Of a DNA stretch of 64,000 bases, positions 5,431 through 63,691 are shown in pieces. Position numbers and translations under genes: made by a program. Position 1 is the stretch's first letter. The number at the start of each line of letters is the position of its first letter. A model generated the notes under the pieces. It was not told where the DNA came from, did not search any database, and worked only from the letters and a program-made list of their open reading frames with translations. The DNA comes from Hymenobacter sp. BT559 (GTDB taxonomy: Bacteria > Bacteroidota > Bacteroidia > Cytophagales > Hymenobacteraceae): positions 1 through 64,000 of the forward strand of contig NZ_JAGETY010000005.1 of NCBI RefSeq assembly GCF_017571525.1, given 5' to 3'.

Positions 5431-5521
5431 TATGTAGCTACTAACGAAAAAACTGGCCGACTGGTGCGTTGCCAGTCATGCCAGTTTATACTCTGTGCTT
5501 ATAATTAACGTGTTGAGAAGG

Positions 5522-6136: not shown

Positions 6137-6142
6137 AGCTGG

Positions 6143-6150
6143 CAAAGGTA
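6143..6150 (-). promoter_or_regulatory. -7 element TACCTTTG for the secreted protein gene
   Basis: The minus strand reads TACCTTTG, a full match to the Bacteroidota TAnnTTTG element. Only 6 nt separate it from the ATG at 6136, so the transcript would be essentially leaderless. Confidence 0.65.
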
Positions 6151-6187
6151 GTGCGGCTTAAGATGCTTCCAACCTTTAACAAAGGAG

Positions 6188-6195
6188 TATCTTTG
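6188..6195 (+). promoter_or_regulatory. -7 element TATCTTTG for ahcY
   Basis: A full match to TAnnTTTG, 36 nt before the ahcY ATG at 6232. It supports the internal start codon over the in-frame ATG at 6151. Confidence 0.7.
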
Positions 6196-6231
6196 CGGTT
6201 CAAGTATCCGACCTCTCAACTGCTGACTATC

Positions 6232-7551
6232 ATGGTAGAAACTAAGCCCACGACCTACGTTCCGTATAAAGTAAAAGACTTGAGCCTGGCCGAGTGGGGC
6301 CGCAAGGAGATTCGCCTGGCCGAAGCCGAAATGCCGGGCCTGATGAGCCTGCGCGCCGAATTTGGCCCTAGCAAGCCGCTAAAAGGAGCCCGCATTGCTG
6401 GCTGCCTGCACATGACCATCCAAACGGCTGTGCTCATCGAAACGCTCATCGAGCTAGGTGCCGATGTAACCTGGTCGTCGTGCAATATCTTCTCGACCCA
6501 GGACCACGCGGCTGCGGCCATCGCCGCCGCGGGCATTCCGGTGTATGCCTGGAAGGGTATGAACGAGGAGGAGTTTAACTGGTGCATCGAGCAGACGCTG
6601 TGGTTTGGCGAGGAGCGCCAGCCGCTCAACATGATTCTTGACGACGGCGGTGACCTCACCAACATGGTCCTCGACCAGTTTCCCGAACTGGCCGCTGGCA
6701 TTAAAGGCTGCTCGGAAGAAACCACGACCGGCGTGCTGCGCCTCATCGAGCGTGTGAAACAAGGCACCTTGCCTTTCCCCGCTATCAACGTAAACGACTC
6801 GGTGACCAAGTCGAAATTCGATAACAAATACGGTTGCAAAGAGTCGGCTGTGGACGCTATTCGCCGCGCTACTGATATCATGATGGCAGGCAAAGTGGCC
6901 GTAGTAGCTGGCTACGGCGACGTAGGAAAAGGTACCGCCGCGAGCCTGCGCGGCGCCGGCGCCCGTGTTATTGTCACCGAAATCGACCCCATCTGCGCGC
7001 TGCAAGCGGCTATGGATAGCTACGAGGTGAAGAAGATGGAGAACGCCATCCCGCGCGCCGACATCGTCATTACCACCACTGGCAACTGCGACATTATCCG
7101 GGAGGAGCACTTCCGCGCCCTCAAGGACAAGGCTATTGTGTGCAACATCGGCCACTTCGATGATGAAATCGACATGGCGTGGCTGAACAATAACTACGGC
7201 CACACTAAAGACACCGTAAAGCCGCAGGTCGATATCTATAACATCGACGGCAAAGAGGTTATCATTCTGGCCGAAGGCCGCTTGGTAAACCTGGGCTGCG
7301 CTACCGGCCACCCGTCGTTCGTGATGTCGAACTCGTTCACCAACCAGACCCTAGCCCAGCTAGAGCTGTGGCAGCACACCAATCAGTACGAAAACCAGGT
7401 ATATACCCTGCCCAAGCACCTCGATGAAAAGGTAGCCCGCCTGCACCTCGCCAAAATTGGCGTAGAGCTGGATGAGCTGACGCCCAAGCAGGCCGATTAT
7501 ATCAAGGTGCCAGTAGAAGGCCCGTTCAAGTCAGACCTGTACCGCTACTAA
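6232..7551 (+). CDS. ahcY: Adenosylhomocysteinase
   Basis: This cytosolic NAD-dependent enzyme splits S-adenosylhomocysteine into adenosine and homocysteine, relieving product inhibition of methyltransferases. The 439-residue length is usual. Visible signatures are [17 protein letters not shown] near 55-70, [16 protein letters not shown] near 80-95, the NAD-binding GYGDVGKG near 225, and the C-terminal KSDLYRY end that closes the active site of the neighbouring subunit. I chose the ATG at 6232 (MVETKPT) because the promoter element lies at 6188-6195. A short gap after the stop leads into an inverted repeat enclosing a terminator. Confidence 0.97.
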
Positions 7552-7557
7552 GAGTTT

Positions 7558-7723
7558 TCTGAACCACGGATTCGGACGGATTTGTCGGATTACGCGGATG
7601 TTGTGTACGCTAAAAAGGCCGCCTATCAGGCGGCCTTTTTAATTACTTTACACAGGCTAGCGGAAGAGAATCGGCTACAAAATCCGCGTAATCCAACAAA
7701 TCCGTCCGAATCCGTGGTTCAGA
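7558..7723. repeat. REP-like inverted repeat pair around a terminator
   Basis: The left arm 7558-7599 and the right arm 7682-7723 are reverse complements at 41 of 42 positions. They contain the phrase ACCACGGATTCGGACGGATT, which resembles intergenic repeats seen in several Bacteroidota genomes (memory, not a search). Between the arms lie a strong terminator and about 40 bp of filler. The right arm reaches into the convergent oxidoreductase gene and supplies its TGA stop. It may be a small non-autonomous mobile element. Confidence 0.8.
7612..7640. terminator. Bidirectional terminator inside the inverted repeat
   Basis: A perfect 13-bp stem AAAAAGGCCGCCT/AGGCGGCCTTTTT with a 3-nt loop. It has A and T tracts on either side, so it serves both convergent genes (ahcY and the flavin oxidoreductase). 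Confidence 0.95.
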
Positions 7724-8756
7724 CAAGTTGTAGCTCCTTCTTCACGGCTGGCGACACCTGCTGCCCAAACAACTCGGTCGAGCGCAGCACGGCCTCGTGC
7801 GGCATGCCTTCCAGCATCAGTTGGCCAAGGAAGCGGGTGTTACCGAATATGTTGCTGAGGTAAACCAGCTTGTCGGTAATCTGCTGCGGCGTGCCTACAA
7901 ACAGGGGGCCCTCCGGCCCACAGAGATAGTCAAACTGCTGGCGCGTAAACGGCCGCCAGCCGCGCTCGCGGCCGATGCGGTTCATGGTCAGCGAGTAGGC
8001 GGGGAAAAACTCATCGGCGGCCTGCTTGGCAGTTTCGGCCAGGTGAAAATGGCAGTTGATGCACAGTGGCAGTGCGGCAGCATCGTGGCCAGCCTGCTGA
8101 GCCGCCCGACGGAAAATATCAGCAAACGTCACGTACTGCGCTGGGGCACCGCCCAGAATAGCAATAGTGAGCCCTAGCCCCAGCGAACCAGCCCGCGCTG
8201 CCGAAGCGGGCGTACCACCCACGCCAATCCAGATGGGCAGCTTGGGCTGTACCGGGCGCGGGTACACGCCCCGGCCCGCAATAGCCGGCCGGTGCTTGCC
8301 CTGCCAGGTCACTACTTCGTTGTCGTTGAGCGTCAGTAATAGCCCTAGCTTTTCGGCGTACAACTCGTCGTAGTCATTCAGGCTTTGCCCAAATAGCGGG
8401 AACGACTCCGTGAACGACCCGCGCCCGGCAATAATCTCGGCCCGGCCATTAGAGAGCAAGTCGAGGGTGGCGAAGTTCTGGAAGGTGCGCACCGGGTCGG
8501 TCGAGCTGAGCACCGTGACGGCACTGGTGAGGCGCACTCGTTTGGTGACCGATGCTACAGCGGCCAATACCATTTCGGGCGACGACACCACGTAGTCGGC
8601 CCGGTGGTGCTCGCCAATAGCCAGCACATCGAGGCCGGCCTCGTCGGCGCAGCGGCCTAGCGCTACAAGTTCCTGCATACGTTGGGCCGCCGCCCGGTCG
8701 CCGCCTGGCTGGTGCGCGGGGGCTAACTCACCGAAAGAACTGATTCCTAATTCCAT
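7719..8756 (-). CDS. LLM-class (luciferase-like) flavin-dependent oxidoreductase
   Basis: This 345-residue protein has the bacterial luciferase-like TIM-barrel pattern: LGISSF at the start, AIGEHHRADYVVSSPEMVLAA (about 45-65), VRLTSAVTVLSSTDPVRTFQNFATLDLLSNGR (about 75-105), and PIWIGVGG (about 175-182). These enzymes use reduced FMN/F420 to oxidise small organic substrates; the substrate here is unknown. The last five nucleotides, including the TGA stop, fall inside the right arm of a 42-bp repeat, so the original C-terminus may have been altered. Two palindromes lie in its promoter region. Confidence 0.88.
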   Translation of the reverse strand: MELGISSFGELAPAHQPGGDRAAAQRMQELVALGRCADEAGLDVLAIGEHHRADYVVSSPEMVLAAVASVTKRVRLTSAVTVLSSTDPVRTFQNFATLDLLSNGRAEIIAGRGSFTESFPLFGQSLNDYDELYAEKLGLLLTLNDNEVVTWQGKHRPAIAGRGVYPRPVQPKLPIWIGVGGTPASAARAGSLGLGLTIAILGGAPAQYVTFADIFRRAAQQAGHDAAALPLCINCHFHLAETAKQAADEFFPAYSLTMNRIGRERGWRPFTRQQFDYLCGPEGPLFVGTPQQITDKLVYLSNIFGNTRFLGQLMLEGMPHEAVLRSTELFGQQVSPAVKKELQLV

Positions 8757-40972: not shown

Positions 40973-41016
40973 AAAAACTTTAACTTCATTTACAAAAAAC
41001 TTGGTCCTTGCTCACG

Positions 41017-42267
41017 ATGAGTTCATTGCTAGCTCTTGAAGAAACTTACCTCGCCCGCCTTAACAACGTGGAGCGGCGGAAGCATATTCAGAAGCTTAAA
41101 ATAATCAAGCATCTGTATGTGAAGGGGGCCAAGACGAACGCAGACATTTGCAGCCGGTTTGCCATCAGCTCGCCCACCTCGATTGCCATTCTCAACGAGC
41201 TGGTAGCGGAGGGGCTAGTCGAGAAGCAGGGCCGTGGCAAATCGCTAGGGGGGCGCAAGCCGGAGCTGTACGGCCTGCGCGATGGGTCGCTGTTTGTGCT
41301 GAGCATTCACATCGAGCAGTTTAAGACCCGGATAGCTATTTTTGACAATAACAATCACATTGTCAATGGTATTCATTCATTTGCTATTGAACTGGCTACC
41401 GATTTGAGTGCGATTGCGCAAGTGCACAAACACGCGCAGGAGCTACTGCTAGCCTCCGGAATTGAGCTGAAAAAGCTGGTAGGGGTGGGCATTAGCATGC
41501 CGGGGCTGGTGGCGTCGAAGGAAGGCAACAACCACACGCACCTGCTCACGACCGGAATGGATAAGTCGCTGCAGCAGCTACTGGAAGAGCAGTTTGGCAA
41601 GCCCGTTTTCATTCAGAACGATGCCAACAGCGCGGCGCTGGCCGAGTACCGCTTCGGGCTGGCGCACGGGCTGCGCGATGCGCTGGTACTGTCAATGGAC
41701 TGGGGCATCGGGCTAGGCATTATTCTCGATGGCAAGCTGCGCGGTGGGGCGCTAGGGTTCGCCGGCGAGTTTGGCCATATTCCGCTGGTCGATGATGGCG
41801 CACTGTGCCACTGCGGCAAGCGCGGCTGCCTCGAAACCGTGGCCTCGGGCAGCGCCATTGTGCGGCTGGCCAAGGCCGGCCTGAAGGCCGGGCAGCGCAC
41901 GCTGCTCAGCCAGCTGCCGGCCTCCGAGCTGGAGCAGCTAGGGCCTGAGCAGGTGTACGAGGCTGCCCAGCAGGGCGACCAGTTTGCCATCAATACCCTA
42001 GCCGAAGTGGGCACCAACCTCGGCAAAGGCATTGCCATTCTGATTCAGCTTTTCAACCCCGAGCTCATCATCTTGGGCGGTAAGATTGCCCAGGCCAAGC
42101 AGTTCATTTTTCCGGCTATTCAGCAGGCTATCAATACGTACTGCATGGCGCAGCTGCGTGAGAAGACCACCGTGATGGTATCGGAGCTGGGCGATAACGC
42201 CGTGATTCTGGGCTCGGTGGCCACGGTCATGGAAAACATTTTTGAAAGCTACCTGGAGCTGGCTTAG
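41017..42267 (+). CDS. ROK family transcriptional repressor (NagC/XylR-like)
   Basis: A 416-residue protein with an N-terminal winged helix-turn-helix (NADICSRFAISSPTSIAILNELVAEGLVEKQG, seen as FAISSPTSIAILNELV) and a ROK sugar-binding domain. The zinc motif CHCGKRGCLE near 265-274 is intact, as are VFIQNDANSAALAEY and GVGISMPGLV. I chose ATG 41017 over an upstream TTG. With NagB, a ROK kinase and GH20 next to it, GlcNAc or GlcNAc-6-P is the likely inducer. The palindrome upstream suggests autorepression. Confidence 0.92.
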   Translation: MSSLLALEETYLARLNNVERRKHIQKLKIIKHLYVKGAKTNADICSRFAISSPTSIAILNELVAEGLVEKQGRGKSLGGRKPELYGLRDGSLFVLSIHIEQFKTRIAIFDNNNHIVNGIHSFAIELATDLSAIAQVHKHAQELLLASGIELKKLVGVGISMPGLVASKEGNNHTHLLTTGMDKSLQQLLEEQFGKPVFIQNDANSAALAEYRFGLAHGLRDALVLSMDWGIGLGIILDGKLRGGALGFAGEFGHIPLVDDGALCHCGKRGCLETVASGSAIVRLAKAGLKAGQRTLLSQLPASELEQLGPEQVYEAAQQGDQFAINTLAEVGTNLGKGIAILIQLFNPELIILGGKIAQAKQFIFPAIQQAINTYCMAQLREKTTVMVSELGDNAVILGSVATVMENIFESYLELA

Positions 42268-42350: not shown

Positions 42351-44294
42351 ATGCAAAACGTCACGCTACCCATCATGACTCGCCTGAACCTCCTAGAGGA
42401 AACGCGTTTTGAAAAGCTGCCGGTGGCCGTGTACCGCGACAAGGAAACGGCTGCCGTAAAAGTGGCCGCGCGCATTGCGGCCATCATCAAGCGCAAGCAG
42501 CAGGCCGGCGAACAGGCCGTGCTAGGGCTAGCCACCGGCGCCACGCCGGTAGGGGTGTACGAAGAGCTGGTGCGCCTGCACCGCGAGGAGGGCTTGAGCT
42601 TTCGCAACGTGGTGACGTTCAACCTGGATGAGTACTACCCCATGCAGCCCACGTCGGCGCAGAGCTACGTGACGTTCATGCACGAAAATCTGTTCGACCA
42701 CATCGACATTGCGCCGGAAAACGTGCACATCCCCGACGGCACGCTAGCCCCGGAAGACGTGGCCGCCTTCTGCCTCAACTATGAGCGCCAGATTGAGGAG
42801 GCCGGCGGGCTCGACCTGCAGCTGCTGGGCATTGGGCGCACGGGCCACGTGGGCTTCAACGAGCCGGGCTCGGCCCCTAACTCGGGCACGCGCCTGGTCA
42901 CGCTCGACGACCTGACGCGCCGCGATGCTTCGCGCGACTTCGGGGGCAAAGAGTACGTGCCGCGCAAGGCCATCACGATGGGCATCGGCACCATCTTCCA
43001 GGCCCGCGAGATTTTGCTGCTGGCCTGGAGCGGCAAGAAGGCGCCCATTATCAAGAAAGCCGTGGAGGGCGAGGTATCGAGCGAGGTGCCGGCTACGTAT
43101 CTGCAACTGGCTGAAAACGTAGAGTTTATTGTGGATGCCGAGGCGGCCGCCGAGCTCACGCGCTTCGACAAGCCCTGGCTGGTGAAGGACTGCGTGTGGG
43201 ATGAGCAGCTTATTAAAAAGGCGGTTATCTGGCTCTCCAATACGCTGGGCAAGCCTATTTTGAAGCTCACCGACGAGGACTACAATGCTCACGGGATGGC
43301 GCAGCTGGTGACCGAGCAAGGGCCAGCCTATGCCATTAACATCCACATTTTCAATAAGCTCCAGCACACCATTACGGGCTGGCCGGGCGGCAAGCCCGAT
43401 GCCGACGACTCGCAGCGCCCCGAGCGCGCCGTGCCGGCCAAGAAGCGGGTGGTCATTTTCTCACCCCACCCCGACGACGACGTGATTTCGATGGGCGGCA
43501 CCTTCATCCGGCTCATCGACCAGGGGCACGACGTGCACGTGGCCTACCAGACCTCGGGCAACACGGCCGTGTGGGACGACGACGTGCTGCGCTACGTGGA
43601 GTTTGCCATCGACTTTGAAACCAGCCTGGGCAAAGATGCCGGCCCACTCCGCAGCGTGTACGAAAACATGCGCGAGTTTATTCAGCAGAAGCAAACCAAC
43701 CAGGTTGATACGCAAGAGATTCGCAACGTCAAAGGCTTTATCCGCAAGAGCGAGGCTATTGCGGGGGCGCGTTACGCGGGCCTAGCCGACGACCACATTC
43801 ACTTTCAGGCGCTGCCCTTCTACGAGTCGGGCAAGACGCTAAAGAACTCGGTGACGGATAAGGATATTGAGCTGACAATGGCGCTGTTGCAGCAGGTACA
43901 GCCGCAGCAGGTGTTCGTGGCCGGCGACTTTGCCGACCCCAACGGCACGCACGTGGTGTGCTTCAATATTGTGGTGGAGGCGCTGCGCCGCCTGCGTAAA
44001 ACCGAGACCTGGGTGGCAGACTGCTGGATGTGGATGTACCGCGGGGCCTGGCACGAGTTTGAGCCCTACGAGATTGAGATGGCCGTGCCGCTGTCGCCGC
44101 AGGAGGTGATTCGCAAGCGCAACGCCATTTTCAAACACCAAAGCCAGAAGGATACGCCAGTGTTTCCGGGCGACGACGCGCGCGAGTTCTGGGTGCGGGC
44201 TGAGCACCGCAACCACGAAACCGCGCAGCAATACGACCGCCTGGGCATGGCCAACTACGAGGCCATGGAAGCATTCGTGCGCTGGCATTTTTAA
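42351..44294 (+). CDS. nagB: Glucosamine-6-phosphate deaminase-like domain fused to a PIG-L deacetylase domain
   Basis: A 647-residue two-domain protein. Residues about 1-300 are NagB-like: GATPVGVYEEL near 65, the FNLDEYY loop with D93, and IGRTGHVGFNEPGS at 161-174. In E. coli NagB the triad is D141-H143-E148; here H166 and E171 align but the Asp is T164. Residues about 365-600 are PIG-L/LmbE-like, with SPHPDDD at 371-377 (zinc ligands H373, D376) and a later DPNGTHVV. PIG-L proteins deacetylate GlcNAc groups, so the fusion could do both NagA and NagB steps on GlcNAc-6-P; this is an inference. Such fusions are known in Bacteroidota. An alternative start is the ATG at 42375. Confidence 0.88.
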   Translation: MQNVTLPIMTRLNLLEETRFEKLPVAVYRDKETAAVKVAARIAAIIKRKQQAGEQAVLGLATGATPVGVYEELVRLHREEGLSFRNVVTFNLDEYYPMQPTSAQSYVTFMHENLFDHIDIAPENVHIPDGTLAPEDVAAFCLNYERQIEEAGGLDLQLLGIGRTGHVGFNEPGSAPNSGTRLVTLDDLTRRDASRDFGGKEYVPRKAITMGIGTIFQAREILLLAWSGKKAPIIKKAVEGEVSSEVPATYLQLAENVEFIVDAEAAAELTRFDKPWLVKDCVWDEQLIKKAVIWLSNTLGKPILKLTDEDYNAHGMAQLVTEQGPAYAINIHIFNKLQHTITGWPGGKPDADDSQRPERAVPAKKRVVIFSPHPDDDVISMGGTFIRLIDQGHDVHVAYQTSGNTAVWDDDVLRYVEFAIDFETSLGKDAGPLRSVYENMREFIQQKQTNQVDTQEIRNVKGFIRKSEAIAGARYAGLADDHIHFQALPFYESGKTLKNSVTDKDIELTMALLQQVQPQQVFVAGDFADPNGTHVVCFNIVVEALRRLRKTETWVADCWMWMYRGAWHEFEPYEIEMAVPLSPQEVIRKRNAIFKHQSQKDTPVFPGDDAREFWVRAEHRNHETAQQYDRLGMANYEAMEAFVRWHF

Positions 44295-44304
44295 GCTGAA
44301 CCCG

Positions 44305-45183
44305 ATGAGCAGCGACAAATACCTGGGCGTAGACATTGGCGGCACGAAGGTGCACCTGGGCGTAGTGCAGCACGGCCAGGTGGTGCAGGAAACGCGGTTT
44401 GAAACGCCGATGGATGCACCTCGGGAAGTGATTCTGGCCGAGCTGACGCGCCAGCTAGCCCCCCTGTTGACCGACGACGTGGCGGGCATCGGTATCGGGG
44501 TGCCGGGGCTGGTAGATGAGGTGAATGGTATCGTGCACAACGTGCAGAATATTCCGTCGTGGCGGGAGGTGCATCTGCGGCAGCACCTGGCCGGCCACTT
44601 CGAGCAGCCGGTGTATATGACCAACGATGCCAATGCCTTTGCCGTTGGCGAAAAGATGTATGGCCAAGGCCAGCCCTACGCCAATTTGGTGGGCCTGGTG
44701 CTGGGCACCGGGCTAGGGGGCGGCATCATCATCAACCACCAGGTGTATGGCGGCACGCTGGCCAGTGCCGGTGAGTTTGGCAGCGTGCCCTACCTCGACA
44801 AAACGCTGGAGGACTATTGCAGCGGCAAGTTTTTCGCGCAGCGCACCGGCCGGCCGGGCACCGAGTGGTACGCCCGCGCCCGGCGGGGCGACGCCGAGGC
44901 ACTGGCCATGTACGCCGAGTTTGGCTGGCACCTGGGGCAGGCGCTGCACATCATCCTATATGCCCTGGCGCCCGAGGCTGTTATCCTGGGTGGCTCGGTG
45001 AGCAAGGGCTTTGAGTACTTCCGCAGCAGCCTGCACGAAAGCTTGGCCGCGTTTCCTTTCAAACAAGTAACGGAGCGGCTGGTCGTGGCGCCCTCGGCCC
45101 TCGGCAACGCCGCCGTGCTGGGCGCGGCGGCCCTCTGCCACATGAAACAGCTTACTTCTCACCACCCCGCGCTCGCGTCATGA
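44305..45183 (+). CDS. ROK family sugar kinase (GlcNAc/glucose kinase-like)
   Basis: A 292-residue cytosolic kinase with the ATP motif GVDIGGTKVHLG at residues 8-19, a second GLVLGTGLGGGIIIN near 131-145 and the sugar-binding NDANAFAVGE near 111-120. The zinc-binding Cys cluster seen in the neighbouring ROK repressor is absent, as in some ROK kinases. There is no DNA-binding domain. It probably phosphorylates GlcNAc or glucose from the hydrolases around it. It overlaps the GH20 gene by ATGA. Confidence 0.88.
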   Translation: MSSDKYLGVDIGGTKVHLGVVQHGQVVQETRFETPMDAPREVILAELTRQLAPLLTDDVAGIGIGVPGLVDEVNGIVHNVQNIPSWREVHLRQHLAGHFEQPVYMTNDANAFAVGEKMYGQGQPYANLVGLVLGTGLGGGIIINHQVYGGTLASAGEFGSVPYLDKTLEDYCSGKFFAQRTGRPGTEWYARARRGDAEALAMYAEFGWHLGQALHIILYALAPEAVILGGSVSKGFEYFRSSLHESLAAFPFKQVTERLVVAPSALGNAAVLGAAALCHMKQLTSHHPALAS

Positions 45184-47516
45184 AGAAGACTTTACTAGCC
45201 GCCGTAGCTGCCACGCTGAGCCTGGCCGGGCTAGCCCCGGTCCACAGCCAGCAGGCCCCTGTCAGCGCGGCCGGCATCGCGGTTATTCCGCAGCCGGTGC
45301 GGCTGGTGCCCGGCACGGGTCGCTTCGCGATTACGCCCGAGACCAAGATTTACGTGGGGCCCAAGAATGAGGAGCTGCGCCGCATCGGCCAGAGCCTGAG
45401 CGCCGAGATAGGCCGCGCTACCGGCGTAACGCCGCCCGTAGTGGCTGCCGCCCCGGGCAAGCAGGCTGCGGGGGCCATCCACTTAAAGCTTTTAGCGGCG
45501 CCCGATACTCTAGGGGCCGAAGGCTACACCTTGAGCGTGCAGCCGGGCCAGGTAGTGCTGGCCGCGCGCCAGCCGCAGGGCTTGTACCTGGGCACCCAGA
45601 CTATCCGGCAGCTGCTGCCGCCGCAGCGTACGGCAGGGGCTAGCCTGCCCGCCGTGGAAGTGACCGACAAGCCCCGCTACCAGTGGCGCGGCATGCACCT
45701 CGACGTGAGCCGCCATTTCTTCCCGGTGGAGTTTGTGAAGCAGTACATCGACTACCTGGCTTTGCACAAGATGAACACCTTCCATTGGCACCTCACGGAT
45801 GACCAGGGCTGGCGCATCGAGATAAAGAAATACCCCAAGCTGACCTCGGTGGGCGGGTTCCGCGAGGGCACGCTCATCGGCCACTACGGCGCCAAAGTGC
45901 CTGAATACGACCACGTGCGCTACGGCGGCTTCTACACCCAGGAGCAGATAAAAGAGGTGGTAAAGTATGCGCAGGACCGCTACATCACGGTGGTGCCCGA
46001 AATTGAAATGCCCGGCCACGCGCTGGCGGCGCTCACGGCCTATCCGGAGCTGTCGTGCACTGGCGGGCCGTTTCAGGTAGGGCAGACCTGGGGCGTGTAT
46101 GACGACATTTTTTGCGCCGGCAACGACCAAACCTTCGCCTTTTTGCAGGATGTGCTGACGGAGGTGATGCCGCTGTTTCCGAGCAAAATCGTGCACATCG
46201 GCGGCGACGAAGCCCCTAAAACCCGCTGGAAAACTTGCCCCAAGTGCCAGGCCCGCATCAAGGCCGAGCACCTGAAAGACGAGCATGAATTGCAGAGCTA
46301 CTTCGTGCAGCGCATGGAAAAATTCGTGAACAGCAAGGGCAAAACCATCATGGGCTGGGATGAAATCCTGGAGGGTGGGCTAGCCCCCAATGCGGCCGTG
46401 ATGAGCTGGCGCGGCATGGAAGGCGGCACGGCCGCCGCCCGGCAAAAGCACCAGGTGGTGATGACGCCCGGCGAGTTTGTGTACTTCGACCACGCCCAGG
46501 GCGACCCTAGCCTGGAACCACTGAGCATCGGCGGCTACCTGCCGCTGGAGAAAGTCTATGCCTTCGAGCCCACGCCTAAGGAGCTGACGGCCGAGGAGCG
46601 CAAGTACATTTTGGGCGCCCAGGCCAACCTCTGGACCGAGTATATCCCGACCACGCAGCAGGCCGAGTACATGGTGCTACCTCGCATGTCGGCCCTGGCC
46701 GAAGTGCTTTGGACGCCGGCCAGCCTCAAAAACTGGGAGAGCTTCAAGGTGCGGATGCAGCCGCAGTACCAGCGCTTTGCCGCGCTAGGGGCCAATTATG
46801 CCAAGAGCGCCTTCAACGTGCGCCAGCAGTTTGTGCCCGACACCACCAAGGGCGGCGACGTGGTAAGGCTGCTGCTCGATGCCACCGGCCCACAAATAGT
46901 CTATACCCTCGACGGCTCGGCCCCAAGCCCGTCTTCCGCCATTTACAAGGGCCCCTTCACGCTCAGCAGCTCGGCCGTGGTGAAGGCGACTTCCTTTGAG
47001 AACGGCCAGCCCGCCGGCAAGACCACGACTACCAAGCTGCTCGCCCACAAAGCCCTGGCTGCCCCAACCCGGCTAGCCAGCGCGCCCAATAAAAACTACC
47101 TGGCCCAGGGCCCGCTCACGCTGGTCGATGGCCTGCACGGCTCGCTGAGCCACACCGATGGGCGCTGGCTAGGCTTTCTGGGTACTGACCTGATGGCCAC
47201 TATTGACCTCAAAAAGACCGCCGAAGTCAGCAGCTTGCGCAGCACGTTCTTGCAAAAGCTCGAAGACAAAATACTGCTGCCCAGAGTGCTGGAAGTAGCC
47301 GTGTCGAATGATGGCCGCACTTACAAAACGGTGTACACCGGGCCGGTTGAGGCGGCCCAGTCTGGCACCAGCATCGGCGAAGTGAAAGCCGACTGGAAGA
47401 AAACCAAAGCCCGCTTCGTGCGCGTCACGGCCAAGAATGCCCAGCCGCTAGCCCCCGGTACCACACCCCAAGACACCGATACCTGGCTATTTGCCGACGA
47501 GCTGGTGGTTGAGTAA
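45180..47516 (+). CDS. Exported beta-N-acetylhexosaminidase, GH20
   Basis: A 778-residue protein with a signal peptide (about 1-24). The GH20 N-terminal domain (about 35-165) precedes the barrel; the catalytic pair D343-E344 is in HIGGDEAPKTRW. Near the C-terminus there are a CHB_HEX_C-like segment (YTLDGSAPSPSSAIYKGPF, about 575-595, seen as TLDGSAPSPSS) and an F5/8-like beta domain (LVDGLHGSLSHTDGRWLGF). It should release terminal GlcNAc or GalNAc from glycans. Its ATG overlaps the kinase stop, linking GlcNAc release and phosphorylation. Confidence 0.95.
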   Translation: MKKTLLAAVAATLSLAGLAPVHSQQAPVSAAGIAVIPQPVRLVPGTGRFAITPETKIYVGPKNEELRRIGQSLSAEIGRATGVTPPVVAAAPGKQAAGAIHLKLLAAPDTLGAEGYTLSVQPGQVVLAARQPQGLYLGTQTIRQLLPPQRTAGASLPAVEVTDKPRYQWRGMHLDVSRHFFPVEFVKQYIDYLALHKMNTFHWHLTDDQGWRIEIKKYPKLTSVGGFREGTLIGHYGAKVPEYDHVRYGGFYTQEQIKEVVKYAQDRYITVVPEIEMPGHALAALTAYPELSCTGGPFQVGQTWGVYDDIFCAGNDQTFAFLQDVLTEVMPLFPSKIVHIGGDEAPKTRWKTCPKCQARIKAEHLKDEHELQSYFVQRMEKFVNSKGKTIMGWDEILEGGLAPNAAVMSWRGMEGGTAAARQKHQVVMTPGEFVYFDHAQGDPSLEPLSIGGYLPLEKVYAFEPTPKELTAEERKYILGAQANLWTEYIPTTQQAEYMVLPRMSALAEVLWTPASLKNWESFKVRMQPQYQRFAALGANYAKSAFNVRQQFVPDTTKGGDVVRLLLDATGPQIVYTLDGSAPSPSSAIYKGPFTLSSSAVVKATSFENGQPAGKTTTTKLLAHKALAAPTRLASAPNKNYLAQGPLTLVDGLHGSLSHTDGRWLGFLGTDLMATIDLKKTAEVSSLRSTFLQKLEDKILLPRVLEVAVSNDGRTYKTVYTGPVEAAQSGTSIGEVKADWKKTKARFVRVTAKNAQPLAPGTTPQDTDTWLFADELVVE

Positions 47517-47588
47517 CCCATTGCTTGCCACCTGCTAACTGGCCTGCTTGCCCGTTTGCCCTCCCCTAAAAATCAACCTGATAGCATC

Positions 47589-48878
47589 ATGCCTACTGTA
47601 GCTACCACGGCCCCGGCGCCCACCCGCCCGGCCACCGGCCAGCCCACCAAGTCGATTGTCATTATCGGGGCGTTGTTTTTCATCTTCGGCTTCGTCACCT
47701 GGCTCAACTCGGTGCTGATTCCGTACCTGCGCATTGCCTGCGAGCTGACCAACTTCGAGGCCTACCTGGTCACGTTTGCCTTCTACATCTCGTACCTGGT
47801 GATGGCTATTCCCTCGGCCTGGGTGCTGAAGGCCACCGGGTTTAAGAAGGGCATGTCGCTCGGGCTGCTGGTGATGGGGGTGGGGGCATTGCTTTTCGTG
47901 CCCGCGGCGCTCACGCGCACCTACGGGCTATTCCTGCTAGGGCTGTTTGTGCAAGGCACGGGGCTAGCGGTGCTCCAAACGGCGGCTAACCCCTACATCA
48001 CCATCCTAGGCCCGCGCGAAAGCGCCGCCAAGCGCATCAGCATCATGGGCATCTGCAACAAGGTGGCTGGGGCGCTGGCGCCCATCGCGCTCGGCACCGT
48101 AGCACTCAAGGATGCCGATGCCCTGGTAAAGCGCCTGGGTAGCCTCAGCACGGCGGCCAAGGCCGCTGAACTCGACGCCTTGGCCGCCCGCGTAATCACG
48201 CCCTACCTGCTGATGCTGGCTGTGCTGCTGGTGCTGGCCGGGCTCATCTACTTCTCGTCGCTGCCCGAAATAGACACCGACCACGAAGACGAGAGCGTGG
48301 CGGCCGCTAACACCTATAAGTCGAGCATTTTTCACTTTCCGCACCTGCTGCTAGGGGCGCTAGCCATGTTTTTTTATGTGGGGGTCGAGGTAATTTCCGG
48401 CGACACCATCATCAGCTACGGTGCCTCGCAGGGTATTGTCCTGGCTACGGCTAAGTTTTTCACCACGTGCACGTTGGTAGCCATGATAGTGGGCTATGGC
48501 GTGGGCATTGTGGCCATTCCGCGGTTTATCTCGCAAGAAAAGGCCCTGCAGGTTTCAGCCATCCTGGGGGTGATGTTTGCGCTGGGCGCATTGTTCACCC
48601 ACAGCTACCTATCAGTACTCTTTATCTCGCTGCTGGGGCTAGCCAACTCGTTGATTTTCCCGGCTATTTGGCCGCTGGCTATTGAGGGGCTTGGGCGCTT
48701 CACCAAGCTGGGCTCGTCGTTGCTCATCATGGCCATTGCCGGCGGCGCGGTGCTACCGCCGCTCTACGGGCTGCTCGCCGACCATTCTTCGCCACAACAT
48801 GCTTATTGGCTGGTGATTCCGTGCTACTTGTTTTTGCTGTTTTACGGCACGGTCGGGCATAAAGCCCGGCGTGCCTAG
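47589..48878 (+). CDS. Sugar MFS transporter, FucP/NagP/GluP type
   Basis: A 429-residue membrane protein with about 12 hydrophobic helices. The start ATG at 47589 is used rather than an in-frame TTG upstream. FucP-family hallmarks are FFIFGFVTWLNSVLIPYLRIACELTNFEAYLV (seen as FGFVTWLNSVLIPYL) and TGLAVLQTAANPYITILGP. Family members carry fucose, glucose/galactose or GlcNAc by proton symport. The gene lies directly after GH20 and near GlcNAc genes, so GlcNAc (NagP-like) is the best guess; fucose is also possible with the two fucosidases. Confidence 0.9.
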   Translation: MPTVATTAPAPTRPATGQPTKSIVIIGALFFIFGFVTWLNSVLIPYLRIACELTNFEAYLVTFAFYISYLVMAIPSAWVLKATGFKKGMSLGLLVMGVGALLFVPAALTRTYGLFLLGLFVQGTGLAVLQTAANPYITILGPRESAAKRISIMGICNKVAGALAPIALGTVALKDADALVKRLGSLSTAAKAAELDALAARVITPYLLMLAVLLVLAGLIYFSSLPEIDTDHEDESVAAANTYKSSIFHFPHLLLGALAMFFYVGVEVISGDTIISYGASQGIVLATAKFFTTCTLVAMIVGYGVGIVAIPRFISQEKALQVSAILGVMFALGALFTHSYLSVLFISLLGLANSLIFPAIWPLAIEGLGRFTKLGSSLLIMAIAGGAVLPPLYGLLADHSSPQHAYWLVIPCYLFLLFYGTVGHKARRA

Positions 48879-48907
48879 GGGTTGTTTTAGTGGGGCATCC
48901 CGCCCAC

Positions 48908-51583
48908 ATGTTTTTTCGAATGACAATATTTCGTTACCTGCTTTTACTGCTCACGCTAGCCAGCATTTCTCCGCTGGCCGCGCAGCAGCGCTATGAGCTG
49001 AACAGCGGCTGGCAGGCCATGCCCATTGCCAAAGTGCCAGCTGCTGGAGCGCAGCTCTCGCGGCCGGGCTACGCGCTCACGGGCTGGCTACCGGCCGTGG
49101 TGCCCGGCACGGTGCTCACCACGCAGCTGGCCAACAAGCAAGTGCCCGACCCCTTCTTCGGGATGAACAACGAGCGCATCCCGGACATTTACCGCACCGG
49201 GCGCGACTACTACACCTACTGGTTTGTCAAAGATTTTCAGGAGGCACCCGCCGCTGGCGATGGGCAGGTGTGGCTGCACTTGCGCGGCGTGAACTACAGC
49301 TGCGAGGTGTTTTTGAATGGTCAGAAGCTCAACAAGCAGACGCACCACGGCATGTTTCTGCGCCAGGCCTACAACATCACGCCCTACTTGGCCAAGGACG
49401 GCCGCAACCGCCTGGCCGTAGTGGTGTACCCGCCCGACCCCGTGGGTAACCCCAACGGCGGCCAGGGTGGCGACGGCACCATTGCCCGCAATGTGAGCAC
49501 GCAATACACGGCCGGCTGGGACTGGATTCGGCCCATCCGCGACCGCAATACCGGCATCTGGGACAAGGTGACGATTGAGAAAACGCGGGCTATCAACCTC
49601 AAAAACCCGCACGTCATCACCCGCGTGCCGGGTGTGCGCCTGCCCGATGGCCCCCAGGCCCCCGCTAGCCTCGACGTGACGGCCGAGCTGGAAAACCCGA
49701 CCGCCAAAGCCGTGGCCGGCACCCTGCAATACACTATTGCGGGCCAGCTGGTGAAGCAAGCCGTGACGGTGCCTGCGCATGCCACTAAGCTGGTGCGCAT
49801 GCCCGCTCACACGCTGGCTAGCCCCCGGCTGTGGTGGCCTAATGGCTACGGGCCGCAAAACTTGTACGCGCTGAAGATGCAGTTCCTGACGGGCGGCAAA
49901 ACCGTTTCGGATGAAGAGAACCTGCAAGTGGGCGTGCGCCAATTAGGGCACGTCTGGAATGAGCACACTCAGAGTATGCAGGTGCTGCTCAATGGTCAGA
50001 AAATCTTCGTGAAGGGCGGCAACTGGATTATTTCTGACGCCATGCTGCGCTTCACGAAGGCGCGCTACGATGCCGAAATCCGGTTTCACCGCGACATGAA
50101 CCTCAACCTCATCCGGATATGGGGCGGGGCGCTGGTAGAGCGGCCCGAGTTTTACGAAGCCTGCGATAAATACGGCCTGCTCGTGATGCAGGACTTCTGG
50201 GTGTCGGGCGACGCCAATGGCCGCTGGGTAGACCCCCAGAAGCTGGAAGACCAGTGGACCCGCCGCCAGTACCCGAACGACCACCGGCTGTTTATCAACT
50301 CGGCCGCCGACCAGATAAAAATGGTGCGCAACTACGCCTCGCTGGGCATCTGGTGCGGCGGCAACGAAATCACTCCGCCCCACGATATTCTCACGGCGCT
50401 GCAAGACTCGCTCTTGCCCCGGCTCGATGGCACGCGGTGGTTTATCCCGTTCTCCAACGCCGACAGCATGTCGTTCAACAACCAGGGCGGCAACGGCGAC
50501 GGGCCGTATGGCATTCAGCCCATCAGCCAGTTTTGGGCGCACCGCACCTACCCCTTCAACTCGGAGGTAGGCTCGGTGGGCGTGGGCGATGTCGAGTCGC
50601 TTGAGCGCTTCCTGCCCGCGGCCAACCTCGTGGCTCCGCGCTACCTGGGGGCTAGCAGCAAGCCCACCGAGCAGGTCGACTCCATGTGGACTTACCACAC
50701 CTACATCAACTACGAGCAGTACCTGCTGCCCTACGGCGCGCCTAGGAACATTAAGGACTTCGGCCTGAAGGCCCAGCTCGTGAACTACGACCAGTACCGC
50801 GCCCTCATGGAAGGCTTCAGCTCGCACATGTGGGACTGGTACACCGGCAGCATCATCTGGAAAACGCAGAACCCCTGGACCGCCATGCGCGGGCAGATGT
50901 ACGACTACTACCTCGACCCCAACGCCTGCCTCTACGGCCTGCGCTCCGGCAGCGAACCGCTCCACGTGATGTATAACCCGGTAGATAGCATGGTGATGAT
51001 TACCAATAACTTGTTTCGGGCGAAGCGCGACCTGATGTTGGTAGTCGATGCTTATGACATGGCCGGCAAAAAGACCAACATCACGCAGGTAATAGTAGAG
51101 GCCGGGCCGTCGATGTCGAAGAAATTCCTGCCCATCAACAGCGTCGTGAAGCAGCTAGGCCAGCAGAAAGGCCTGTTCCTATCACTACAGCTGCAAGACC
51201 TGCGCAAGCAGGTAGTCAGCAATAATTTCTACTGGCTACCCGACGGCCGGGGCGAGTACTCGGGCCTGCAAAACATGCCGAAAACTGCCGTGCGCGCCAC
51301 CGCCCACCAAACGGCGCTCGGCAAAATTGCCGTGACGCTCACCAACCCGAGTGGCGCGCCGGTGGCCTTCTTCAACCGCCTCGCCCTGGTGAACCCTAGC
51401 ACGCAAAAACGCATCCTCCCGGTTTTCTATACCGACAACTACGTGTCGGTGCTGCCCGGCGAAAGCAAAACCGTTGGGCTCGACTACACCCCGGCGGCCG
51501 GCCAGCCCGCGCCCGTGGTATCGGTTGAGGGCTGGAATGTAGACAAACTCCTATTGCCCGTTGCGGGCGCCGCCACCAAGTAA
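48908..51583 (+). CDS. Exported GH2 glycosidase (beta-mannosidase / endo-beta-mannosidase-like)
   Basis: An 891-residue protein with a signal peptide (start ATG 48908; ATG 48920 is also possible; signal cut near LAAQQ). The GH2 jelly-roll has YWFVKDFQ near 98 and the barrel has NLIRIWGGALVERPEFYEACDKYGLLVMQDFWV (seen as IRIWGGALVERPEFYEACD). Acid/base E487 is in CGGNEITPP and the probable nucleophile is E553 in NSEVGSVGV. It resembles mannosylglycoprotein endo-beta-mannosidase and exo-beta-glucosaminidase-type GH2s; a role on the Man-beta-1,4-GlcNAc core of N-glycans is likely in this context. Confidence 0.87.
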   Translation: MFFRMTIFRYLLLLLTLASISPLAAQQRYELNSGWQAMPIAKVPAAGAQLSRPGYALTGWLPAVVPGTVLTTQLANKQVPDPFFGMNNERIPDIYRTGRDYYTYWFVKDFQEAPAAGDGQVWLHLRGVNYSCEVFLNGQKLNKQTHHGMFLRQAYNITPYLAKDGRNRLAVVVYPPDPVGNPNGGQGGDGTIARNVSTQYTAGWDWIRPIRDRNTGIWDKVTIEKTRAINLKNPHVITRVPGVRLPDGPQAPASLDVTAELENPTAKAVAGTLQYTIAGQLVKQAVTVPAHATKLVRMPAHTLASPRLWWPNGYGPQNLYALKMQFLTGGKTVSDEENLQVGVRQLGHVWNEHTQSMQVLLNGQKIFVKGGNWIISDAMLRFTKARYDAEIRFHRDMNLNLIRIWGGALVERPEFYEACDKYGLLVMQDFWVSGDANGRWVDPQKLEDQWTRRQYPNDHRLFINSAADQIKMVRNYASLGIWCGGNEITPPHDILTALQDSLLPRLDGTRWFIPFSNADSMSFNNQGGNGDGPYGIQPISQFWAHRTYPFNSEVGSVGVGDVESLERFLPAANLVAPRYLGASSKPTEQVDSMWTYHTYINYEQYLLPYGAPRNIKDFGLKAQLVNYDQYRALMEGFSSHMWDWYTGSIIWKTQNPWTAMRGQMYDYYLDPNACLYGLRSGSEPLHVMYNPVDSMVMITNNLFRAKRDLMLVVDAYDMAGKKTNITQVIVEAGPSMSKKFLPINSVVKQLGQQKGLFLSLQLQDLRKQVVSNNFYWLPDGRGEYSGLQNMPKTAVRATAHQTALGKIAVTLTNPSGAPVAFFNRLALVNPSTQKRILPVFYTDNYVSVLPGESKTVGLDYTPAAGQPAPVVSVEGWNVDKLLLPVAGAATK

Positions 51584-60222: not shown

Positions 60223-60367
60223 CGTAGCATTTGCCTAGCGCAACGGGGCTGGTCCGCAGCCGGCTGCTGCGCAAGAAGATAAATGCGCAGGTAGTATCTT
60301 TTAACCAGCAAAGCTCAAGGCGTTGCGCCCGTTTTTCTGCATAAGTTCTTTTACGCTGGGTTTACGT

Positions 60368-63300
60368 ATGATTAACCGCTATTTCAGAGCTAGTTGCCTG
60401 GCTGTATTGGCCTTGCTGGGGGCTAGCCCCGCTGGGCTGGCCCAGACCCAGCAGCCACTGTTCAGCCTGCTCACTCCCCAGGAAACGGGCATCGCGTTCA
60501 CCAACACCATCAGCGAGAACGAGGCGTTAAATATTCTGTCCTACGAGTACTTCTACAACGGCGGCGGCGTAGCGGTGGGCGACGTGAACGGCGATGGCCT
60601 GCCCGACCTGTTCTTTACCGGCAACATGCGGCCCAACAAGCTGTACCTCAACCAGGGCGGCTGCAAGTTCAAGGACGTGACCGACCAGGCTAGCCCCTTG
60701 CTGGCGGGCCGCAAGGATGGCTGGAAAACCGGCGCCACGATGGCCGACGTGAACGGCGACGGCCGCCTCGATATCTACGTGTGCTACTCGGGCAAAAAGG
60801 CCGACGACGTGCGCCGCAACCAGCTGTTTATCAACCAGGGCGACGGCAAGTTCACGGAGCAGGCCAGCCAGTACGGCCTCGATGACCCCGGCTACAGCAC
60901 CCAGGCTGCCTTTTTCGACTACGATAATGATGGCGACCTCGACATGTTTTTGCTCAACCATAACGTCAAAAAGATTGACAATATGGAATTTGCGCGCCAC
61001 AAGGATGAGGTGGACGTGCTGGCCGGCAACAAGCTGTTTCGGAACGACAACGGGCACTTCGTGGACGTGTCGCGGGCGGCGGGCATCGTGCAGAATCCAC
61101 TCACGTTTGGGCTGGGCATTGCCGTGGCCGACATCAATAAGGACGGCTGGCAGGACGTGTACGTCACCAACGACTACAACGAGCCCGACTACCTGTACCT
61201 GAACAACAAGAACGGCACCTTCACCGACCACTCGCAGCAGATGCTGCGCCACCACTCGCAGTTTTCGATGGGCGTGGATATCGCTGATTTCAACAACGAT
61301 ACGCAGCCCGACATCTTCACCCTCGACATGCTGCCGGCCGACAACCACCGCCAGAAGTCGCTGCAATTGCAGGAAAACTACGAGCTGTTTGAGTTGCAGC
61401 AGCAGCAGGGCCTGTACCCACAGTACATGCGCAACATGCTGCACCTCAACAACGGCGACGGCACGTTCAGCGAAATCGGGCAGCTGGCCGGCGTGGCCAA
61501 AACCGACTGGAGCTGGTGCCCGCTCATCGCCGATTTCGACAACGACGGCTACAAGGATATTTTCATCAGCAACGGCTACCTGCGCGACTACACCAACAAG
61601 GATTTTCTGCGCTACTGGGGCGATTACAAGATTAAAAAGGCGATGGCGAGGGAGCCATTTTTGCTGATGGACCTCGTGACGGCCATGCCCGCCACGGCTA
61701 TGCCCGACTATATCTTCCGCAACGAGCACAACCTGACTTTCGCCAACAAGCAGCAGGAGTGGGGCCTGAACCAGACCAATATGTCGAACGGCGCCGTGTA
61801 CGCCGACCTCGACAACGACGGCGACTTGGACTTGGTGGTGAATACTATCAACCAGCCGGCCAGCCTTTACCGCAACCACGCCAGCGAAGCGAACCACACC
61901 AGCTATTTGGCTTTCAAGCTGAAAGGCCCTGGTCTGAACACCCAGGCCGTGGGCGCCAAGGTGTACGTGTACACGCCCGGCCAGGCACAGTATCAGGAGC
62001 TGAACCCTAGCCGCGGCTACCTCTCGTGCGTGTCCACGACACTGAATTTTGGGCTCGGCACCAGCCAGCGGGCCGACTCGGTGCGCATCATTTGGCCCAA
62101 CCAGACCACCCAACTGCTCACCAACGTGAAGGCTAACCAGCTGCTCCAGCTAAGCGGCCAGCCCAAGGACCGGCCCTACGCCCTAGCCCCGGCGGTGCCC
62201 AAAAAGGTGTTCCGGCCCGCCGCGCCGCTGTTCGATTTCAAGCCTGAGGAAGTGGCCCTTAACGACTTCAAGCGCCAGGTGCTCATGCTGTTCATGTACT
62301 CGAAAACGGCGCCGGTAATGACGAAGGCCGACGTGAACAAGGACGGCCGTGACGACCTGTTCGTGAGCGGCGGCAAGGACGAGGTAGGCAAGCTCTACCT
62401 CCAGCAGCCGGGCGGCAAGTTCACCGAGGCGCCGCTAGCGCGCAGCACCAGCCGGCCGGCCGGCACGGTAGCGGCCGCCACGTTTTTCGACGCCAACGGC
62501 GATGGCTACCCTGACCTCTACCTGGCCAAGGGCGGCTACGCGCTCTACGAAGCCGGGCAGGAAGACTTGCAGGACGAGTTGTACCTCAACGACGGCCACG
62601 GCCGCCTGTCGCTAGCCCCCGCCGGGCTGCCGGTGCTCACGGCAGGCAGCAAAAGCTGCGTGCGCGCCGCCGACGTGGACCAGGACGGCGACCTCGACCT
62701 GTTCGTGGGCGGGCGCGTTATCCCCGGCCGCTACCCGCTAGCCCCGCCCAGCTACCTGCTGCTTAATGACGGCCACGGCGCCTTCACGGCCGCGGCAGTG
62801 CCCTTCGCCCAGGCCGGCATGGTGACCGACGCGCAGTGGGTAGACCTCAACAAAGACAAGCGCCCCGACCTCGTGCTGTGCGGCGAGATGATGCCGCTAA
62901 CGGTGTGGGTCAATACGCCGCAGGGCTTCAAAAACCAGACTACCGACTACTTCGCCAGTCCCCAGCCGGGCCTGTGGTTCAGCCTGCACGTGGCCGACGT
63001 GAACGCCGACGGCCAGCCCGACATCGTGGCCGGTAACCTCGGCCTGAATAGCCCGCTGCGGGCCAGCGCCCAGGAGCCGGCCTCGCTGTACTACGCTGAT
63101 TTTGATGGTAATGGCTCAATCGACCCGTTCTTCAACTTCTACATGGACGGCAAGAGCTACCCCTACGTGAGTCGCGATGAGCTCAACGACCTTATCTACC
63201 CCATGCGCCGCCGCTTCACCTCGTACAAAGCCTACGCCGACGCCACGATGGCCGATATCTTCCCCGCCGATGAGCTGGCTAAGGCCAGCAAGCTGGAAGC

Positions 63301-63691
63301 TACCGAGCTGCGCACCATGTTGTATCTCAACACTAAGGGTAAATTCGCGCCCGCCGAACTGCCAGTAGAGGCGCAGTTCTCGGTGGTGACCCAGGTGCTG
63401 AGCGGCGACTACAACCACGACGGCCACCCCGACCTGCTGCTGCTGGGCAACCACACCGACAACCGCCTGAAAATGGGCAGCATCGACGCCAGCTACGGCT
63501 GCCTGCTGGCCGGCGACGGCCGGGGCCGATTCCGCTACGTGGCGCAGCCGGCGGCGGGTATTTGCGTGGTCGGCGACGTGAAATCGGCCAGCGAGATTAC
63601 CGTGGGCCGCCAGCCCTACCTGGTGGTGGGCGTCAGCAGCGGCCCCGTGCAGTTTTACCAGGAAGAAGTTTTTCAGCCGCTTTCGCGATGA
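60368..63691 (+). CDS. Large exported FG-GAP/VCBS repeat protein with ASPIC/UnbV domain (CRTAC1-like)
   Basis: A 1107-residue protein with signal peptide (start ATG 60368, hydrophobic about 10-28, cut near GLAQT). It carries about 14 calcium-binding-like FG-GAP motifs, such as DVNGDGLPD, DVNGDGRLD, DYDNDGDLD, DINKDGWQD, DFDNDGYKD, DLDNDGDLD, DVDQDGDLD and DYNHDGHPD, spread in two propeller blocks. Between them, about 510-590, is an ASPIC/UnbV-type segment (SRGYLSCVSTTLNFGLG then VRIIWPNQTTQLL). Such proteins are common near SusC/SusD in Bacteroidota; function is unknown, perhaps binding or processing of a polymer. Its stop overlaps the next gene by ATGA. Confidence 0.88.
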   Translation: MINRYFRASCLAVLALLGASPAGLAQTQQPLFSLLTPQETGIAFTNTISENEALNILSYEYFYNGGGVAVGDVNGDGLPDLFFTGNMRPNKLYLNQGGCKFKDVTDQASPLLAGRKDGWKTGATMADVNGDGRLDIYVCYSGKKADDVRRNQLFINQGDGKFTEQASQYGLDDPGYSTQAAFFDYDNDGDLDMFLLNHNVKKIDNMEFARHKDEVDVLAGNKLFRNDNGHFVDVSRAAGIVQNPLTFGLGIAVADINKDGWQDVYVTNDYNEPDYLYLNNKNGTFTDHSQQMLRHHSQFSMGVDIADFNNDTQPDIFTLDMLPADNHRQKSLQLQENYELFELQQQQGLYPQYMRNMLHLNNGDGTFSEIGQLAGVAKTDWSWCPLIADFDNDGYKDIFISNGYLRDYTNKDFLRYWGDYKIKKAMAREPFLLMDLVTAMPATAMPDYIFRNEHNLTFANKQQEWGLNQTNMSNGAVYADLDNDGDLDLVVNTINQPASLYRNHASEANHTSYLAFKLKGPGLNTQAVGAKVYVYTPGQAQYQELNPSRGYLSCVSTTLNFGLGTSQRADSVRIIWPNQTTQLLTNVKANQLLQLSGQPKDRPYALAPAVPKKVFRPAAPLFDFKPEEVALNDFKRQVLMLFMYSKTAPVMTKADVNKDGRDDLFVSGGKDEVGKLYLQQPGGKFTEAPLARSTSRPAGTVAAATFFDANGDGYPDLYLAKGGYALYEAGQEDLQDELYLNDGHGRLSLAPAGLPVLTAGSKSCVRAADVDQDGDLDLFVGGRVIPGRYPLAPPSYLLLNDGHGAFTAAAVPFAQAGMVTDAQWVDLNKDKRPDLVLCGEMMPLTVWVNTPQGFKNQTTDYFASPQPGLWFSLHVADVNADGQPDIVAGNLGLNSPLRASAQEPASLYYADFDGNGSIDPFFNFYMDGKSYPYVSRDELNDLIYPMRRRFTSYKAYADATMADIFPADELAKASKLEATELRTMLYLNTKGKFAPAELPVEAQFSVVTQVLSGDYNHDGHPDLLLLGNHTDNRLKMGSIDASYGCLLAGDGRGRFRYVAQPAAGICVVGDVKSASEITVGRQPYLVVGVSSGPVQFYQEEVFQPLSR

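Follow-up and report, generated by a model that had tools for sequence, protein, structure and literature searches.

A NagB–PIG-L fusion protein of Bacteroidota as a candidate bifunctional GlcNAc-6-P deacetylase and GlcN-6-P deaminase

The NagB of Escherichia coli is described as a hexamer (PMC3648570) that is activated by GlcNAc-6-P (PMC4008608), and Asp141 and Lys160 are named among the residues that bind this activator (PMC4281351). The NagB of Bacillus subtilis is described as monomeric and non-allosteric, and as one of the two deaminase isozymes of that organism (PMC3648570). The deacetylation of GlcNAc-6-P is the reaction of NagA (TIGR00221), which is placed in the amidohydrolase superfamily (PMC6016474). 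Among the PIG-L enzymes, diacetylchitobiose deacetylase is reported as an archaeal enzyme of chitin breakdown with GlcNAc2 as its substrate (PMC4101496).

Proteins in which a NagB domain is fused to a PIG-L domain are collected in NF002557/PRK02122 as "glucosamine-6-phosphate deaminase-like protein", a name that carries no tested function. The family name is used in PMC3764172, and a literature search, judged largely by titles, found no paper about the NagB–PIG-L fusion. Here we describe one such fusion from Hymenobacter sp. BT559, in a window of 64 kb (the whole stretch of DNA that was analysed), together with its relatives in sampled genomes. The fusion is widespread in Bacteroidota and probably unites two predicted activities in one protein.

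The fusion protein and its operon

The fusion gene lies at 42351–44294 on the plus strand of the window and encodes a protein of 647 residues, as defined by the ORF, Pfam, and NCBIfam. The frame starts with ATG and has no internal stops, the matching frame of the antisense strand is interrupted by stops, and the mechanically called minus-strand ORFs that overlap it are shorter. The protein is a member of the PRK02122/NF002557 family, the model of which it fits over its full length without difference (residues 10–646 of 647, 1041.8 bits, cut-off 384).

The NagB domain at residues 30–252 (42438–43106, plus strand) was identified by Pfam Glucosamine_iso (76.3 bits for the protein, cut-off 27), by phmmer alignments, and by the match of the structure model to 2bkv; the nagB model TIGR00502 scored 247.6 bits over residues 36–270, just over its cut-off of 236.9. 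The PIG-L/LmbE-type deacetylase domain (43455–44291, plus strand) was identified by Pfam PIG-L (PF02585) at residues 369–544 (54.6 bits, over the gathering score of 28.2) and by a fold match covering residues of about 364–647. The nagA model TIGR00221 gave no match to the protein at E 0.001.

The query segment GIGRTGHVGFNEPG aligns in phmmer with GIGRNGHIGFNEPG of B. subtilis NagB (2bkv) and with GVGNDGHIAFNEP of Vibrio cholerae NagB (5hj5), so that T164, the codon of which was located by translation and these alignments at 42840–42842 on the plus strand, sits on the Asp of the D-G-H motif. We take D93, T164, H166, E171, and K230 to be equivalent to D72, D141, H143, E148, and K208 of E. coli NagB. 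The PIG-L site residues are also present, as an H373-P-D-D-D motif (H373, D375, and D376) and H534, which by analogy form a putative metal site and base. The initial annotation had reported Thr at the place of Asp141 with H166 and E171 aligned, and zinc residues in the C-terminal domain; the alignments confirmed the former, and the latter proved invariant in all 144 distinct fusions described below.

A structure model was built from 45 sequences (pLDDT 88.5, pTM 0.82), an alignment of 36 fusions and 9 unfused NagBs picked for diversity, and superseded a poor model from 9 sequences (pLDDT 67.8). Its residues 23–270 match 2bkv best (Z 38.1, 1.1 Å over 242 residues, 43% identity), which is also the nearest solved relative by phmmer (E 1.3e-57). 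B. subtilis NagB (2bkv/2bkx) shares with the fusion the fold, the equivalents of D72, H143, E148, and K208, and the lack of Asp at the 141 site, but has Asn where the fusion has Thr and is without a PIG-L domain. E. coli NagB (1dea and others, Z 37.9) shares the fold and most active-site residues, but retains Asp141.

Residues of about 364–647 of the model match BshB (Z 21.9) and the Pyrococcus diacetylchitobiose deacetylases (Z about 21). The archaeal enzymes (8bgn, 3wl4) and BshB/MshB, the substrates of which are GlcNAc-malate and GlcNAc-inositol, share with the fusion the fold (Z 18–22) and the HPDD...H metal motif; unlike the fusion they are stand-alone enzymes, at 17–20% identity. In a sequence search of solved structures, the top match of the PIG-L half was diacetylchitobiose deacetylase, at E 1.7e-5 over only 50 residues.

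The fusion gene is the second in a run of six genes on the plus strand, with gaps of 83, 10, −4, 39, and 11 bases. The run comprises a ROK-family repressor with a winged helix, NagC-like below the cut-off (41008–42267, 83 bases upstream of the fusion); the fusion; a ROK-family sugar kinase that reached no equivalog cut-off (44305–45183, 10 bases downstream); a GH20 beta-hexosaminidase (45180–47516), which overlaps the kinase gene by 4 bases; an MFS sugar transporter (47556–48878), over the cut-off of the gluP model and NagP-like at 390 bits, below the NagP cut-off of 625; and a GH2 protein with an exo-beta-D-glucosaminidase-type Ig domain, recognised by Pfam (48890–51583). These genes lie in a glycan-utilisation locus (34311–59028) with two alpha-L-fucosidases, GH3, a BNR (sialidase-like) protein, GH20, GH2, GH92, and a SusC/SusD pair, which could supply GlcNAc to the fusion pathway. 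At 60323–63691, the window also encodes a protein of 1122 residues with FG-GAP repeats and an ASPIC/UnbV domain.

A TIGR00221 search of the genome found no nagA in the 64-kb window. The sole match over the cut-off in the genome lies on another contig (G000:C2:47710–48813, 327 bits, cut-off 225.65) and adjoins a Mur-ligase-type gene, the latter below the cut-offs of its models. The suggestion that this genome has no nagA was therefore wrong and was discarded, and the fusion in this strain would be either redundant with NagA or specialised to its locus. The second PF01182 protein of the genome is a 6-phosphogluconolactonase beside gnd- and zwf-like genes (identified by eye), so that the fusion would be the only NagB of PF01182 type in the genome.

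The residue at the Asp141 site

Among 144 distinct fusions, a set that includes the protein of the window and draws many members from related species, the residue at the 141 site is Thr in 119, Ser in 21, Asn in 3, and Ala in 1, and is never Asp; among 30 unfused Bacteroidota NagB ORFs, it is Asp in 23 and Asn in 7. One of 14 further loci, some of which repeat earlier ones, has Val (L208). (A residue count with 112 rows includes L002, a repeat of the window's own copy.) These counts indicate that Thr164 is not a sequencing accident, and they rule out that Thr is strictly fixed. The other NagB residues are conserved, D93 in 141, H166 in 143, E171 in 143, and K230 in 144 of the 144 fusions, with R181 also kept in nearly all, and the H373-P-D-D-D motif and H534 of the PIG-L half show no exception.

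In a FastTree tree of the NagB domains rooted on the Asp type, constructed without the two truncated proteins of genome G099, the fused domains (144 of 144) group together in a single clade (support 0.85). This clade joins the 7 Asn-type unfused NagBs with a support of 1.0, at an edge where the three Asn-type fusions are also listed. The motif of B. subtilis NagB (2bkv) likewise reads R-N-G-H. With Asn in the adjoining unfused branch and in B. subtilis NagB, and Asp in none of the fusions, the loss of Asp probably preceded the fusion event, as far as the sequences tell. The simplest history is a change of Asp to Asn before the fusion, followed by changes to Ser or Thr.

The Lys160 place, located by counting from the motif, is V183 in the fusion studied here, and Val (98/144) or Ile (46/144) in the fusions overall. 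Because the Asp141 and Lys160 places are both changed in the fusions, we infer that activation by GlcNAc-6-P is expected to be lost, as in B. subtilis.

The initial annotation had treated Asp as a requirement of the NagB triad, which is contradicted by the active B. subtilis enzyme with Asn; Asp at 141 does not define the family. It had further suggested that the changed residue may imply an altered mechanism or another sugar, a proposal left unsupported by the Asn of the adjoining unfused branch and of B. subtilis NagB. Its view that Thr may mark a distinct subfamily holds in that a non-Asp residue is a subfamily trait, but not for Thr itself, which is replaced by Ser, Asn, Ala, or Val. The Thr is a family trait, and by itself no sign of a new mechanism or a broken enzyme.

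Distribution of the fusion, NagA, and MurQ

Of the 395 Bacteroidota genomes sampled, 157 hold the fusion over the NF002557 cut-off. NagA was over its cut-off in 37 of these 157 (36/80 and 1/77), leaving 120 without NagA over the cut-off, and 114 lacked any match at 1e-40. Of the 28 families, many of them represented by few genomes, 19 have no sampled fusion genome with NagA over the cut-off. The genomes termed fusion-less are those below the NF002557 cut-off, including two with a divergent relative (G078 and G120); 51 controls were chosen by eye from NF002557 matches of intermediate strength, and 29 further genomes comprise 20 without an NF002557 match and 9 with weak matches. In fusion-less genomes with an over-cut-off unfused NagB, NagA was present in 21 of 31, and none was over the cut-off in 10. 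The difference between 37/157 and 21/31 gives a Fisher p of 7e-6, uncorrected for descent.

Fusions without any nagA match were found in two of three sampled genus-mates (G072 and G166), and Bacteroides ihuae, one of the named control genomes, has a fusion over the cut-off and MurQ, with no nagA at 1e-25. Among the 39 named genomes of fusion loci, which account for 40 of 80 loci, these being the best 80 of 583 confirmed matches, nagA was present in 28; the 11 without it are all 7 Pontibacter, one Hymenobacter MAG, and 3 Gramella/Christiangramia. Within their 8-kb flanks, 6 of the 7 Pontibacter fusions are followed by GH20 and 5 by a NagP homologue. The literature on GlcNAc assimilation in Pontibacter, as judged by title, yielded nothing bearing on the fusion question.

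The product of MurQ is GlcNAc-6-P. MurQ was searched in 80 of the 114 fusion genomes without a NagA match at 1e-40, and was over the cut-off in 77 of these 80, compared with 38 of 57 genomes in which the fusion and NagA are both below the cut-off (Fisher p 5e-6, uncorrected for descent) and with 23 of 23 fusion-less genomes with NagA. The argument that MurQ proves the need for a deacetylase was weakened, because MurQ is also over the cut-off in those 38 of 57 genomes.

At least 6 of the 80 NagA-less genomes (G049, G186, G304, G134, G130, and G234) have MurQ within 1 kb of a fusion, and gene order was read in five of these; the counts of fusions adjacent to NagA or MurQ are all lower bounds. 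In G130 (L206, 254–9434), AnmK, a NagZ-like GH3, an AmpG-like MFS protein, and GHL10 precede the fusion, followed by divergent DeoR and MurQ genes; AnmK passes its cut-off, the GH3 and AmpG assignments fall below those of their models, and MurQ scores above the cut-off of NF003915 and narrowly under that of TIGR00274. G134 (L205) and G304 (L204) resemble this locus by BLAST and resemblance, with a SusC-like ORF intervening in L204; protein scans of the MurQ-linked loci covered L202 and L206. In G049 and G186 (L202 and L203), one strand carries a kinase-like gene, weakly NagK-like and far below the cut-off, then MurQ, a gene of 193–201 residues, and the fusion. The intervening gene lies at 7710–8291 in L202 and at 7555–8160 (minus) in L203, and Pfam gave no match to the L202 copy. 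AnmK also precedes the fusion in G372, and in G072 an ORF homologous to the AnmKs of these loci follows it. NagA and NagB would normally be expected at these MurQ and AnmK positions.

Several loci separate or break the two halves. G219 gave no NagA match and carries a gene pair (L224, 4675–6350, minus) made up of an Asn-type NagB gene and, 23 bases further on, a PIG-L gene that matches the C-terminal half of the fusion. Two other genomes without NagA, G078 and G120, encode a protein of 784–791 residues (L218, 8926–11280; L220, 6416–8791, minus) that is one gene from, or adjoins, a canonical Asp-type NagB; the catalytic Glu is missing from its NagB domain (FNVRGSS), and the fusion PIG-L profile matches its C-terminal part weakly, with Pfam finding no PIG-L in the G120 protein. 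A PIG-L relative near NagB was found in 3 of 10 loci without NagA over the cut-off and in none of 10 NagA-positive control loci, numbers that are small; overlapping ORFs were dropped in this survey, after which L229 showed no NagB ORF. Two 371-residue frames of G099, considered as natural versions without PIG-L, were rejected as they stop at contig ends.

Two fusions have a broken NagB site with both Asp93 and His166 changed, L197 (G347, 4694–6679, minus) and L208 (G230, 4874–6895, plus), and in those of L186 and L187, D93 alone is changed; the PIG-L motif is intact in all four. The PIG-L half seems to be under its own selection, since it is intact where the NagB site is broken.

Candidate roles of the PIG-L half

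We consider the fusion to be, with reasonable probability, a bifunctional GlcNAc-6-P deacetylase and GlcN-6-P deaminase able to stand in for NagA. The distribution and the gene neighbourhood suggest that the PIG-L domain is likely the GlcNAc-6-P deacetylase of many NagA-less Bacteroidota. It would then perform the reaction of NagA from within a different superfamily, a relation that would be a non-orthologous replacement. The metal-dependent LmbE-type PIG-L domain would strip acetate from GlcNAc-6-P, and the NagB domain would convert the resulting GlcN-6-P to fructose-6-P, with release of ammonia, along the usual route of NagB enzymes, possibly with channelling between the two halves. The H166/E171 pair would open the ring and D93 would transfer the proton, roles which we assign from E. 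coli NagB. Thr164 would replace the already non-acidic Asn of the likely ancestor, and its probable effect would be on GlcNAc-6-P allostery and on the positioning of His, rather than on whether the reaction runs. In the locus studied here, GH20 would free GlcNAc, the NagP-like MFS protein would import it, and the ROK kinase would phosphorylate it, and the fusion would end the pathway without a local nagA.

The strongest case against a simple replacement of NagA is provided by G339 and G068, in which NagA directly adjoins the fusion in a run of N-acylglucosamine 2-epimerase-like gene (below the cut-off), NagA, and fusion (L195, 4685–9032; L196, 4003–8347, minus). With NagA beside the fusion, a second deacetylase would be superfluous there. 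G371 and G245 also have NagA at a short distance from a fusion, about 3 kb and 5 kb respectively, and G347 has two nagA copies near its NagB-broken fusion. Also against the replacement are the 10 of 31 unfused-NagB genomes without NagA over the cut-off, the MurQ of genomes in which neither enzyme reaches it, and the intact PIG-L of fusions with a broken NagB site. In Flavobacterium johnsoniae, deletion of the chitin-locus nagB (Fjoh_4557) is reported to leave growth on chitin unaffected; the organism is described as having three other nagB-like genes, a NagA is predicted for it, and the protein could not be expressed (PMC5127042). We infer that Fjoh_4557 belongs to the fusion family. The proposal of the initial annotation that the PIG-L domain deacetylates GlcNAc-6-P in place of NagA is favoured by the 120 of 157 fusion genomes without NagA and by fusions standing at the NagA step of gene clusters, but is opposed by the NagA of this very genome.

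The position of NagA in G339 and G068, adjoining the fusion, would be accommodated if the NagB half were a standard GlcN-6-P deaminase with a PIG-L half that acted on another substrate of the pathway, such as free GlcNAc, a disaccharide, a muropeptide sugar, or a sialic-acid-derived N-acetyl sugar, with NagA carrying out the classical step where present. The retention of PIG-L even where the attached NagB is broken is consistent with such a role, as is the top sequence match among solved structures, an enzyme described as acting on GlcNAc2 (PMC4101496). However, the GlcNAc-6-P deacetylase would then be missing from the 120 of 157 fusion genomes that have no NagA over the cut-off, the MurQ encoded next to the fusion would yield GlcNAc-6-P, and a ROK kinase adjoins the fusion in the local operon, so that we regard another substrate as unlikely, though a serious contender.

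A Thr form that is catalytically altered, with a NagB half inactive as a deaminase or acting on another sugar phosphate, appears much less probable still. B. subtilis NagB, one of two deaminase isozymes (PMC3648570), has Asn at this site, nearly all 144 fusions preserve D93, H166, E171, K230, and R181, and the fusion would be the only PF01182-type NagB of its genome. These points outweigh the Asp of 23 of 30 unfused Bacteroidota NagBs and the few fusions with clearly broken NagB sites, which indicate that loss of NagB activity is tolerated in some lineages.

The bifunctional reading can be extended to a broader proposal, which is more tentative and for which we would put the chances at slightly below even. 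A PIG-L GlcNAc-6-P deacetylase, fused to a NagB without the acid and the lysine of the activator site, would have replaced NagA across much of Bacteroidota, and a single polypeptide would remove both the intermediate and the allosteric signal. It may serve the use of chitin and N-glycans as well as peptidoglycan recycling, and the nagB–pigL gene pairs and the broken-NagB PIG-L proteins beside canonical NagB might represent the same partnership.

If the bifunctional assignment is true, it would close a gap, the deacetylation of GlcNAc-6-P, in the pathways by which many Bacteroidota, a large phylum noted for glycan breakdown, use amino sugars and recycle cell walls, and would correct pathway predictions that call genomes incomplete for want of nagA. 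Thr and Ser would join the residues that may occupy the Asp position of the NagB triad, and a function would be given to a large family named only "deaminase-like" in NCBIfam.
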